From NCBI GenBank assembly GCA_009782915.1, contig WRIC01000009.1, positions 26,154 to 90,153 of the forward strand: a stretch of 64,000 nucleotides of DNA, in the 5' to 3' direction. Shown piece by piece: positions 57,794 through 64,000 of the stretch. Numbering within the stretch: position 1 is the first letter of the stretch; every line of letters begins with the position of its first letter. A program made the translations under genes and the position numbers. The notes under the pieces are model-generated. The model did no database searches, was not told the origin of the DNA, and was given only the letters and a program-made list of their open reading frames with translations. The DNA comes from Propionibacteriaceae bacterium (GTDB lineage: Bacteria; Actinomycetota; Actinomycetes; Propionibacteriales; Propionibacteriaceae).

Positions 57794-57834
57794 AACGGTA
57801 CCAAACAGCCCTCCACCCCTCCAGAAGCAACGCC

Positions 57835-58172
57835 ACCCCCGTCACCGTACGCAACACTGCGAGATGCAACACCACCGCCGTCACCCTGCGGAGCGGAGCG
57901 ACTCGCAACACCTCCCGCGTCACCCTGCGCACTTACCCCGTCACCCTGCGCACTCACCCCGTCACCCTGCGCACTCACCCCGTCACCCTGCGCGAAGTCG
58001 CAGGGTCCAGACTACCTAGTTGTTCGACTGTGGATTCTGGATTCCGCGAGTCGCTGCGCTCCGCGGAATGACGGGTGGGTAGCGCCACGCTCAACAGCAC
58101 GACGGGGGTGAGTCCGCTCCGCGGGGAGACGGGGGTGAGTCCGCTCCGCGGGGAGACGGGGGTGAGTGCTTC
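57835..58172. repeat. Family-A repeat cluster with tandem truncated arms
   Basis: CCCCGTCACCCTGCGCACTCA repeated 3 times, one full element, then GGTGAGTCCGCTCCGCGGGGAGACGGG repeated twice. Confidence 0.93.
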
Positions 58173-59519: not shown

Positions 59520-59640
59520 ATTCTGCGACTTCGCGCAGAAAGACGGGGGGTAGGCGTCATCCAGCGGTTACTCCTTTGCCGTTTCCCTGGACCCTGCGAC
59601 TTCGCGCAGGGAGACGGGGATGGGTGTGCGCAGGGTCCAC
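59520..59640. repeat. Family-A half-elements flanking and inside the 3' end of murI
   Basis: TCTGGATTCTGCGACTTCGCGCAGAAAGACGGGG (59517-) and CCCTGGACCCTGCGACTTCGCGCAGGGAGACGGGG (59587-). Confidence 0.9.
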
Positions 59641-60435
59641 GATCACTTCCTCGAAGGCTTCCGTGGTGTTGACGAAGTCACCCAGGAGTCGTGAAGCGAT
59701 CTTGGTGAAACGCTGTGGGTTTCCGGTGGTGAGGAAACGCCGTACCCCCTGGTCTCCTTCGCGAAGTAAACCCTCATTGGCAAGTGTCCCGTAGGTAGCG
59801 GTCGCGCATTCCTCAGCAGAGGACACTAAGGTCACCTGATCACCCAACACATAGGAGATGACTCCCGCCAGCAGTGGATAGTGGGTGCAACCAAGAATCA
59901 CTGTGTCAACATCGGTGTCAATGATCGGCGAAAGATAGTCCTTGGCGACACCCATAAGTTCCTCCCCACTGGTGATCCCTGCCTCCACGAAATCCACGAA
60001 CCGCGGGCAAACGATCGTGGTCAGTTCGGCATCTGTGGCTGACACCGCATCCTCGTAGGCGCGCGAGGTGGCGGTTGCCTGGGTGGACAGTACGGCGAGT
60101 TTACCCGTACGCGAAACACGTACTGCCCTCTTGGCCGCAGGAAGGACCACCTCGACTACCGGAATGGAATACCGTTCCCGCGCATCAGCAAGCACAGCGG
60201 CTGAAGCCGAGTTGCAGGCAATGACCAGGGCTTTCACACCCATGTCCACCAGGGCATCCAAACAAGCTAAAGCGAAGGTGCGCACCTCTGCAATCGGTCG
60301 TGGACCATAGGGCGCGCGAGCAGTATCCCCCAGATAGATGAGGTCCTCCCCCGGCAGCAGATCTACGATCGCTCGGGCAACAGTTAGTCCACCGAACCCG
60401 GAGTCGAAGATCCCTACCGGTGCATTCGTGTTCAC
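59557..60435 (-). CDS. murI: Glutamate racemase
   Basis: [46 protein letters not shown]. Confidence 0.96.
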
Positions 60436-60456: not shown

Positions 60457-60760
60457 GTGACAAAACACCTCCCCATGCTGTCACGAAACCGTCACCCTGC
60501 GCGAAGTCGCGGGGCCCAGACTACCCAGTTGCTCAACTGTGGATTCTGGATTCTGCGACTACGCGCAGAAAGACGGAGCGATACGTCAAAACACCTCCGT
60601 CCCCATGTCGTCACGGAACCGTCACCCTGCGGAGCGAAGCGACTCGCAGGGTCCAGGCCACCCAGTTGTTCAACTGTGGATTCTGGATTCTGCGACTTCG
60701 CGCAGAAAGACGGAGGAAGAGTCGCGCAGAAAGACGGGGGAAGAGTCGCGCAGAAGGTGG
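60457..60760. repeat. Mixed family-A/family-B repeat cluster
   Basis: GTGACAAAACACCTCCCCATGCTGTCAC; two full family-A elements (60490-60577, 60619-60716); truncated GAAGAGTCGCGCAGAAAGACGGGG tandem copies. Confidence 0.93.
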
Positions 60761-60782: not shown

Positions 60783-61007
60783 TCAGTTGCAGAATGACGG
60801 GAAAGGAACCAGTGAGCAACCTGAGCAGCCGTGGGGTGGGCAGGAGGATTGGAGGGGGGCTCGATGGACTTCACCACTGTGGTGGAGTTGCTTGATGCAG
60901 TCCGTCACCACCTCACGGGGAAGACCGGTCGTCGATGAAATCTGGGAGACCACTCGTACCCCACGATTGATGGCATCACGAACAAGGGTCAAAGACTCAA
61001 CACTCAT
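60783..61007 (-). CDS. feoC: FeoC-like small winged-helix protein with C-terminal Cys cluster
   Basis: MSVESLTLVRDAINRGVRVVSQISSTTGLPREVVTDCIKQLHHSGEVHRAPLQSSCPPHGCSGCSL; ATGA overlap with the FeoB-like gene. Confidence 0.7.
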   Translation of the reverse strand: MSVESLTLVRDAINRGVRVVSQISSTTGLPREVVTDCIKQLHHSGEVHRAPLQSSCPPHGCSGCSLVPFPSFCN

Positions 61008-62281
61008 AGGATCAGCCTCAGAAACTGGAAGGTCACAATTGCTGCGATAGATGCCATGACCAGTTGAATAGCCATCCCCACCGCAGTCCATTTCCATCCC
61101 ACCTGGCGTACCTGGGTAGCGAAAGTAGCCACGCATGGGGTGTACGCCAAGAGGTACACCATGAAAGCGACAATCGCTGCGATGGCGTGACCACCGGAGG
61201 ACACCTCGAAGGTCATCCAGATATGGTCGCCCAACACCGACAGGTCAACACCTAAAACCCCATAGGTTTGTGCCCAACTGGAAATCACTGCTTCCTTGGC
61301 CACCAGACCCACCACCAGGGCAGCAACAGCCTCCCAGTTGCCGAAACCTGCGGGACTAAACAGTGGGGCCACCAAGGAAGCTGACCATCCGTAGAGTGAA
61401 TCCGTCACCTCCACATGGCCGAAAGACCCACCATGAACGGGAATGGCTTGGAGAAACCATACACCGATCACCGCGGCGACAATGATCCCGCCGGCGGTCT
61501 GCAGGAAGTCTTTGATCCGTGCCCAAGCAATGAACCAGATGGGTTGAAACCGGGGGATCTGGTACGCGGGTAGGTCGAAGACAAGGGGTTGTTCACCGAT
61601 GGTACGCCACAGCGTCTTCCTCATCAGCAACCCGGCTAGGACAACGTACCCCAAAGAAACCAGGTACATCCCGAAGACCACTGTTCCAGCCCACCGCCCG
61701 AAGAACATGCTCCCCAGCATGATGAAAACAGTCAGCCGAGCCGAGCATGCTGTGAAAGGAATGAGCAGGGCAGTCATGAGACGCTGGTGGCGCTGTGGGA
61801 GGTCGCGGGTGGCCATGAGCGCGGGAACATTACATCCAAAACCGACCACCAAAGGCAGGAATGCTTGGCCGGGCAAGCCTAGGATTCCCATGACGCGATC
61901 GGTGAGAACAGCAGCACGCGCCAAATATCCGGAATGCTCGAGGCCCGCCAGCAGAAGAAACATCATGGTCATCATGGGTAGGAAGGTGAGCACCATCCCC
62001 ACTCCAGCAATGAGCCCATCAACAACGAGTCCTTCCATCCATGTTCCCCCGAGCCCGATGGTGTTCATGAGTGCTGAGGTTCCCCCAGCTACGGGGCCAG
62101 TCAGGAGGGTGCTCAACCATTTCTGCAAGGGGGAAGCCAAGGTGGTGGTCAATTGGAAGACCAACCACATCACCACTAAGAAGAACAGTGGTCCGAATAC
62201 GGGGGCGAGCAGGATGCGGTCGATGGAATCGTGGATAGGGGCAGATGTCCGGGTTTTCTGGGCTTCTCTGCTCGGCTTCAC
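61004..62281 (-). CDS. feoB: FeoB-type ferrous iron permease domain protein lacking N-terminal GTPase domain (GTG start)
   Basis: DSIDRILLAPVFGPLFFLVVMWLVFQLTTT, VGFGCNVPALMATRDLPQRHQRLMTALLIPFTACSARLTVF, Gate and C-terminal FeoB motifs; no G1-G5 motifs. Confidence 0.88.
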   Translation of the reverse strand: MKPSREAQKTRTSAPIHDSIDRILLAPVFGPLFFLVVMWLVFQLTTTLASPLQKWLSTLLTGPVAGGTSALMNTIGLGGTWMEGLVVDGLIAGVGMVLTFLPMMTMMFLLLAGLEHSGYLARAAVLTDRVMGILGLPGQAFLPLVVGFGCNVPALMATRDLPQRHQRLMTALLIPFTACSARLTVFIMLGSMFFGRWAGTVVFGMYLVSLGYVVLAGLLMRKTLWRTIGEQPLVFDLPAYQIPRFQPIWFIAWARIKDFLQTAGGIIVAAVIGVWFLQAIPVHGGSFGHVEVTDSLYGWSASLVAPLFSPAGFGNWEAVAALVVGLVAKEAVISSWAQTYGVLGVDLSVLGDHIWMTFEVSSGGHAIAAIVAFMVYLLAYTPCVATFATQVRQVGWKWTAVGMAIQLVMASIAAIVTFQFLRLIL

Positions 62282-62282
62282 A

Positions 62283-62300
62283 TAGGTAAGGCTAACCTAA
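62283..62300 (-). promoter_or_regulatory. DtxR/IdeR-type iron box TTAGGTTAGCCTTACCTA
   Basis: Close to the consensus TTAGGTTAGCCTAACCTAA; next to the feoB GTG start. Confidence 0.75.
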
Positions 62301-62334
62301 CTTTCTTTCATCCTGCAAGTATTGCGCTATCCAT

Positions 62335-63105
62335 CTACGGCGCCGTACGGCAATGGAAAACATCCCCAGCATAGAAGGTTCGGATATCCCCTGAGACCTC
62401 CACCAGTAGTGCCCCATCCTCGTTGATATCCACCGCTCGCCCACTGACAACCACGTGCTCGTCCACGGAGATGTCCACATCACGGCCCAGGGTGGCACTG
62501 AGTTTCCGGTAGTCATCCAAGAGCAGATGATCACGGTGACCCATCATGTCCAGTCGCGTACCCACACAGTTGAGCACCTCAACAATGACATCCTCGTTGG
62601 TGGTCGTGACCCCAGCCATGGCCAAAGAAATCGCGGTATCCACACCGATCTCCTGGGCTGACTGGGACACATTGACACCGACACCCACCACTGCGATGCC
62701 CTGAACAATACGTACGCGAATCCCACACAACTTCTTGTCACCGATGAGAACATCATTCGGCCATTTCACTTGCGCAGTTCCCCCGATGATGGTGACCGCA
62801 TCCACCACACCCACTCCCACAGCCAGAGGGATCAAGCCCAATGAGTGGGCAAACCTCTCCACAGGAAGGGCCAGCGACATCGCAACAGCCGTACCGGGAG
62901 GGAAAAACCAACCACGGCCCAACCGCCCACCACCGGAGGTCTGTTCTGTAGAGATCAGAACCTTGTACGGCGGGCACCCGTGGCTCACTCGCATAGCCAA
63001 CTCGTCGTCGGTTGAGGTCACTGTGGGAAGGAATTCCAATTCCCAGGGGCAAGAATCACCGGTCAACCGCGACGCGTGGGAGGAAAAACTCTGTTCAGTG
63101 ACCAT
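62335..63105 (-). CDS. birA: Biotin--[acetyl-CoA-carboxylase] ligase
   Basis: STDDELAMRV, STEQTSGGGRLGRGWFFPPGTAVAMSLAL, VKWPNDVLIGDKKLCGI; start at MVTEQSF. Confidence 0.9.
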   Translation of the reverse strand: MVTEQSFSSHASRLTGDSCPWELEFLPTVTSTDDELAMRVSHGCPPYKVLISTEQTSGGGRLGRGWFFPPGTAVAMSLALPVERFAHSLGLIPLAVGVGVVDAVTIIGGTAQVKWPNDVLIGDKKLCGIRVRIVQGIAVVGVGVNVSQSAQEIGVDTAISLAMAGVTTTNEDVIVEVLNCVGTRLDMMGHRDHLLLDDYRKLSATLGRDVDISVDEHVVVSGRAVDINEDGALLVEVSGDIRTFYAGDVFHCRTAP

Positions 63106-63123
63106 GCCTGGTACCGTAGCAGA

Positions 63124-63723
63124 ATGAGAGTCATCCTCGCTTCGGCTTCCCCCGCACGCCTGCAAACCCTACGCAACGCCGGCATCAATCCTGAGGTCAT
63201 CGTCTCCGAGGTTGACGAATCAGTGTTCACCGCCGCCACCCCCTCAGAGTTGGCCTGCCTGCTGGCTGAGAAGAAAGCTGAGGAAGTATTCACTCGACTT
63301 GGCTCCCCAGCTGACACCATCATCATTGGATGTGACTCTATCCTCGACTTTGAGGGGCGACCTCAGGGAAAACCTGGTTCTCCTGAGGCGGCTGTTGAGC
63401 TTCTTCGCCGTACGCGCCGCCGTTCCGGTGTCCTGGTGACTGGACACCACATCATTGTCTCCACCGACAGGGTCCAACGAGTCAACCGCGGGGGAAAAAC
63501 CATCATCCATGTGGCAGACCTCTCCGATGAAGAGATCGATGCCTATGTTGCCACCGGTGAACCCGAACATGTCGCCGGTGGGTTCACCATCGACGCCCTG
63601 GGTGGCCCCTTCATCACCGGCATCGAAGGTGACCCCCACAACGTGGTGGGCTTGTCCCTTCCGCTAGTACGCATGATGCTCGCCGACTGCGGTATCCAGT
63701 GGACCTCCCTGTGGGGAGCGTAA
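63124..63723 (+). CDS. maf: Maf family nucleotide pyrophosphatase
   Basis: MRVILASASPARLQTLRNAGINPEVIVSEVDE, GCDSILDFEGRPQGKPGSPEAA, VAGGFTIDALGGPFITGIEGDPHNVVGLSL. Confidence 0.95.
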   Translation: MRVILASASPARLQTLRNAGINPEVIVSEVDESVFTAATPSELACLLAEKKAEEVFTRLGSPADTIIIGCDSILDFEGRPQGKPGSPEAAVELLRRTRRRSGVLVTGHHIIVSTDRVQRVNRGGKTIIHVADLSDEEIDAYVATGEPEHVAGGFTIDALGGPFITGIEGDPHNVVGLSLPLVRMMLADCGIQWTSLWGA

Positions 63724-63766: not shown

Positions 63767-64000
63767 CGTCTGCGGAGCACTGCGAGTCGCGCTGACGCGC
63801 TCTGCAGCACAGGCTCCACGACTCGCAACAACTCCCGCGTCACCCTGCGGAGCGGAGCGACTCGCAGGGTCCAGACTACCCAGTTGTTCGAATTCAGCCT
63901 CCCCCGTCACCCTGCGCGAAGTCGCAGGGCCCAGACTACCCAGTTGTTCGAATTCAGCCTCCCCCCGTCACCCTGCGCGAAGTCGCAGGGTCCAGACTAA
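63767..64000. repeat. Family-A repeat cluster continuing past the window edge
   Basis: Long-arm variant plus ~67-bp tandem units (CCCCGTCACCCTGCG...AGGGYCCAGACTACCCAGTTGTTCGAATTCAGCCT). Confidence 0.92.

Follow-up and report, generated by a model that had tools for sequence, protein, structure and literature searches.

The window, i.e. the whole stretch of 64,000 nucleotides that was analysed, carries on its reverse strand an open reading frame (ORF) for a FeoB membrane domain only (61004-62281; 425 aa, GTG start), as identified by profile matches and synteny. Pfam searches of this ORF detected Gate (E 2e-29, two stretches) and FeoB_C (E 9e-10), both above the cut-off, and no match to FeoB_N; the G domain, with its GxxxxGK[ST] P-loop, and the GDI domain are missing. 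The alignment to TIGR00437 begins at model position 238 of 594, and the score of 305.2 bits is slightly under the cut-off (315.65) because the N-terminal half is missing. The gate cysteine motifs (i.e. GFGCNVPA, CSARL and YTPC) were invariant in the alignment, all G-less members included. Downstream lies a 74-aa feoC-like winged-helix ORF (60783-61007, reverse strand) with a C-terminal cysteine cluster, CPPHGCSGC, and an ATG that overlaps the feoB stop codon (ATGA). This ORF matched the FeoC profile weakly (E 0.06); its position, overlap and cysteine motif are as in most relatives. The conserved downstream neighbour is murI (59557-60435, reverse strand; ORF and synteny), while birA (62335-63165, reverse strand; profile match and synteny) is the conserved upstream neighbour and forms the boundary of the deletion discussed below. 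Only 53 bases separate birA from feoB, a gap insufficient for a G domain. Splitting of the gene by a frameshift was ruled out, as there is no space for G-domain sequence between the two genes. A preliminary description of this DNA had reported a FeoB permease without its GTPase domain, with birA upstream and no split G-domain ORF in the window, and the Pfam and TIGR00437 results and the size of the gap bear out these statements. It made no mention of the feoC-like gene, of a DtxR box next to the start codon or of the feoA-feoB order in relatives, both described below. Several copies of intergenic repeat families (e.g. CCGTCACCCTGCGCGAAGTCGCAGGGTCCAGACTA and CTGGATTCTGCGACTTCGCGCAGAAAGACGG) are also present in the window (57820-58170, 60460-60750 and 63820-64000).

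Comparison with relatives from the genus indicated an ancestral gene order, found in most of them, of birA, DtxR box, feoA, full-length feoB, feoC and usually murI. In one relative (G003; L039:6500-8587), feoB occupies two frames, a 321-aa frame encoding the G domain and, just downstream, a 480-aa frame for the membrane domain, representing a frameshift, a true split or an assembly error. A 425-aa G-less gene with 70% amino acid identity to the window protein was found at the same locus of a sister species (G006; Propionibacteriaceae MAG Nt197P3bin38, contig WRIJ01000003.1) from a termite gut. Nt197 denotes the humus-feeding termite Neocapritermes taracua (PMC7024585), and kinship with G006 suggests that the window's own genome (G000) may also come from a termite gut. 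For a third species (G014; L041:1-1411), the contig starts inside a box remnant, TTACCTT; an ATG comes immediately afterwards and opens a G-less FeoB whose N-terminus differs, spanning ~65 residues that include several cysteines; no feoC was detected downstream of this gene. All three are metagenome or draft assemblies and are small, at about 1.6-2.2 Mb (G000, 1.64 Mb and 93.5% complete; G006, 96% complete with 7% contamination; G014, 88% complete). The presence of the same architecture in an independent termite-gut MAG (G006), and of a comparable one in G014, ruled out an assembly artefact.

The sequence upstream of the G-less gene was compared with that of feoA in these relatives. A DtxR/IdeR-type box identified by consensus match, TTAGGTTAGCCTTACCTAT (62282-62300, reverse strand), directly abuts the GTG start codon; it has 2 mismatches to the consensus, is the sole site in the window at ≤5 mismatches, is kept in relatives and would be expected to bind DtxR. 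A putative -10 hexamer, TAGCCT, assigned by eye from the consensus, lies within the box 7 nt before the GTG (62289-62294, reverse strand; leaderless), and a putative -35, TTGCAG, assigned by comparison with relatives, is located 18 nt before the -10 (62313-62318, reverse strand). The same -35/-10 spacing was observed in G006 (TTGCAT) and in G001 (TTGCGC). In several relatives the box ends 2 bases before the feoA start codon and a TAGCCT-like -10 is found seven bases before this start. For the window and G006, the order is a -35-like TTGCAG or TTGCAT, an 18-base spacer, TAGCCT, seven bases, GTG and then, directly, the FeoB membrane domain; the box, -10 position and start codon of the G-less gene coincide with those at the start of feoA in relatives. 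Codons 2-3 are also alike, with GTG AAT CCG in the G-less gene of G006 and ATG AAT CCT in feoA of G001. The simplest account is a deletion of nearly all of feoA and of the FeoB G and GDI domains that placed the membrane domain behind the start of feoA. Such an event, in the interval from birA to the FeoB membrane domain, would have left the membrane domain in frame, with the promoter and start codon that once served feoA (i.e. the DtxR box and leaderless GTG) now driving it, and the first codons of the ORF probably derive from the feoA start.

This architecture appears to be unusual. The FeoB membrane domain was matched in 164 of 398 Actinomycetota genomes and, among the matches listed, the only frames of <500 aa were the window ORF and two whose start falls in the first 21 bases of their contig. 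Among 45 related loci in named genomes, the G006 locus alone lacked an upstream P-loop while lying away from a contig edge, and a search of open-licence papers revealed no report of a G-less FeoB. The window protein shares with canonical FeoB (TIGR00437) both Gate regions, the conserved cysteines, the FeoB_C segment, the feoC gene order and the iron-regulator box, but differs from it in lacking the G and GDI domains, in the absence of feoA and in changes to five residues that are invariant in relatives. In the apparent split FeoB of Chloroflexota (L053, Ornatilinea; L058) the membrane domain likewise has its own reading frame, but there a P-loop is encoded in a different frame ~0.8 kb upstream whereas no FeoB G domain was found in the window genome. 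The FeoA-FeoB fusion of the Bacteroides fragilis type (PMC8980893) also joins a feoA-derived N-terminus to FeoB; that protein keeps a whole FeoA and a whole G domain while the window form has only a few feoA codons and no G domain.

The predicted fold was examined with an AlphaFold model of the 425-aa protein (pLDDT 80, pTM 0.79). The best PDB matches by Foldseek were to concentrative nucleoside transporters (i.e. CNTnw and vcCNT), with a probability of 1.00 for nearly all; these matches covered ~430 columns with 13-15% identity and, for this predicted model, only a moderate TM-score of 0.32-0.50 and an E of 0.015 at best. Concentrative nucleoside transporters are secondary transporters that need no NTPase. 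The metal-gate cysteines of the window protein are a FeoB feature that sets it apart from this group. A sequence search found no solved structure of the FeoB membrane part, and no crystal structure of a whole FeoB exists (PMC11920956). Searches of G000 and G006 for NRAMP, FTR1 and siderophore permeases were negative and yielded only a ZnuA-type system; as no other dedicated iron importer was found in these two genomes, one would expect the importer that they do encode to work.

Taken together, the locus is probably best explained as a retained G-less FeoB, born by deletion, that acts as an autonomous, DtxR-controlled Fe(II) permease. A G-independent transporter is favoured because the gene is intact in at least two lineages and because the promoter, start codon and gate residues have been kept. 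The gate cysteines would bind Fe(II), and the CNT-like membrane domain would carry the ion down its electrochemical gradient with neither a GTP gate nor FeoA, such that transport by the 425-aa protein would have the gradient as its driving force. Control would now be exerted by DtxR at the level of transcription, and the feoC-like gene is still encoded alongside feoB in the window species and G006. A G-protein-independent ferrous transporter had been one of two options in the preliminary description; the architecture that it implies is supported by the intact gene, promoter and gates, and from these we infer the function.

Intactness of the gene could also be a matter of chance. The main rival to an autonomous permease is slow decay, in which genome reduction removed the G domain and the membrane domain is now non-functional or barely functional. 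Levels of constraint bear directly on this explanation. Comparison of G000 with G006 gave a dN of 0.23 as compared to a saturated dS near 2; among the three G-less genes dN was 0.23-0.33 with saturated dS (about 2 to 3), and all three ORFs were without a stop or frameshift. Columns invariant in 21 full-length relatives were kept at 133 of 142 positions in G000, 128 of 142 in G006 and 126 of 141 in G014, corresponding to 89-94% for G-less proteins; leaving out each full-length protein in turn gave 97-100%. With murI, rph and rdgB as the reference, evolution was ~1.6-fold faster in G-less than in full-length proteins (mean ratio of 1.66 versus 1.05), which suggests that constraint on the G-less FeoB has been partly relaxed, yet it appears far from lost.

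Five invariant columns (D116, T244, T248, V251 and F326; window numbering) were changed in all three G-less proteins, an outcome reached in 0 of 20000 permutations in which genomes were treated as independent, a result that shared ancestry may inflate. Two of these changes (i.e. T248I and F326L) were identical in all three proteins. The core CFeoB segment (226-252) had changes at 7 of 12 invariant columns versus 18 of 129 outside it (Fisher p 0.001, for a segment picked after the changes had been seen). Asp116 is the most telling of the five changed residues. This Asp is invariant in the aligned full-length FeoBs from Actinomycetota, Chloroflexota, Clostridia and an archaeon, whereas the three G-less proteins have His, Ser and Glu; the alignment places the His of the window protein at codon 61934-61936 (reverse strand). 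Slow decay would be consistent with the faster evolution, the 9-15 substitutions at otherwise invariant positions, the additional loss of feoC in G014 and the small assemblies of all three species. This explanation is nevertheless unlikely, as the ORF has stayed intact in three of three species despite saturated dS, the promoter spacing, start codon and gate motifs are kept, coupling to feoC persists in two species and the changes are concentrated and non-random.

An alternative is that the G domain acts in trans, with a separate GTPase, a relocated FeoB G domain or a recruited housekeeping GTPase driving the membrane domain. In G000, the PF02421 matches were Obg, Era, HflX and YchF only, the single PF04023 match was the C-terminal domain of a DtxR-family regulator rather than a stand-alone FeoA, and no second FeoB was found. 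A FeoB-type G domain was not found by profile in G006, and a stand-alone FeoA, which lies beside feoB in most relatives, was not found in G006 or G014. When a relative's own G domain was used as the query, strong recovery was observed in G001, G002, G003 and G008 and none in G000, G006 and G014. The Der (EngA) GTPase was not found in the G000 assembly though relatives have one, probably reflecting an assembly gap. As Der is also missing, failure to find a gene in G000 counts for little by itself; with 93.5% completeness something could be missing, and the split FeoB of Chloroflexota (L053, L058) provides a precedent for a G domain encoded in another frame. Against a partner in trans, FeoB-type G domains were missing from G000 and G006 by profile and from all three genomes by the relative's G domain, FeoA, whose target is the G domain, has been lost as well and an otherwise universal Asp is among the residues changed in all three proteins, as if a docking contact had been lost. 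Action in trans is therefore improbable. The orphan GTPase encoded elsewhere, the other option in the preliminary description, was searched for and not found in genomes of 93.5%, 96% and 88% completeness (G000, G006 and G014, respectively); a full-length FeoB elsewhere together with relics of a G domain beside birA, which it had regarded as signs of a decaying pseudogene, were looked for and neither was seen. A changed role (e.g. a constitutive divalent-metal channel, an Mn(II)/Zn(II) importer or an iron sensor) has slightly less still to recommend it, for although some FeoBs carry Mn(II) (PMC8749426) and the core CFeoB segment, a proposed metal binder (PMC11920956), has diverged in the G-less proteins, the DtxR-type box and gate cysteines are unchanged and G000 and G006 yielded no other dedicated iron importer.

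The number of losses behind the putative autonomous permeases was examined with trees. The FeoB tree weakly grouped the three G-less forms with G010 (77/86), and the housekeeping tree placed G010 as sister to G000/G006 (96/97). The housekeeping data rejected a clade of the three G-less species without G010 (p-AU 0.03) and did not reject the four together (p 0.30). G010 was considered as a fourth G-less member. Its feoB contig starts partway through the membrane domain, and its birA contig terminates in a repeat shortly after birA. This is another intergenic repeat, unlike those of the window. An apparent G-domain fragment in G010 was identified as YchF and discarded. The G010 protein looks like the full-length type because it keeps all five of the residues that changed in the three G-less proteins. 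Two independent losses of the G domain, one in G000/G006 and one in G014, are possible. A broader proposal, that at least two independent losses in the genus each gave a working G-protein-independent iron permease relaxed at the same positions (i.e. Asp116 and the core CFeoB segment), is put forward tentatively and is more doubtful than not. If true, Asp116 and the core CFeoB segment would form the interface that couples GTPase to permease, and the FeoB GTPase would be a gate or regulator and not a motor.

A G-independent FeoB is of interest because it is at odds with the published finding that FeoB of E. coli and V. cholerae needs NTPase activity for uptake (PMC8980893, PMC10353542). Two views of FeoB, as an active transporter and as a GTP-gated channel, are under discussion in the literature, as are the roles of the G domain and FeoA. 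The comparisons name candidate coupling residues (i.e. Asp116; Thr244, Thr248 and Val251; Phe326), and the G-less FeoB also bears on a proposal about the Gate-2 cysteine (Cys675). For structural work, the 425-aa form offers a smaller, nucleotide-independent protein. A FeoB that lacks both the G domain and FeoA, under an iron-type promoter, would provide a natural experiment on iron movement by the membrane domain alone.
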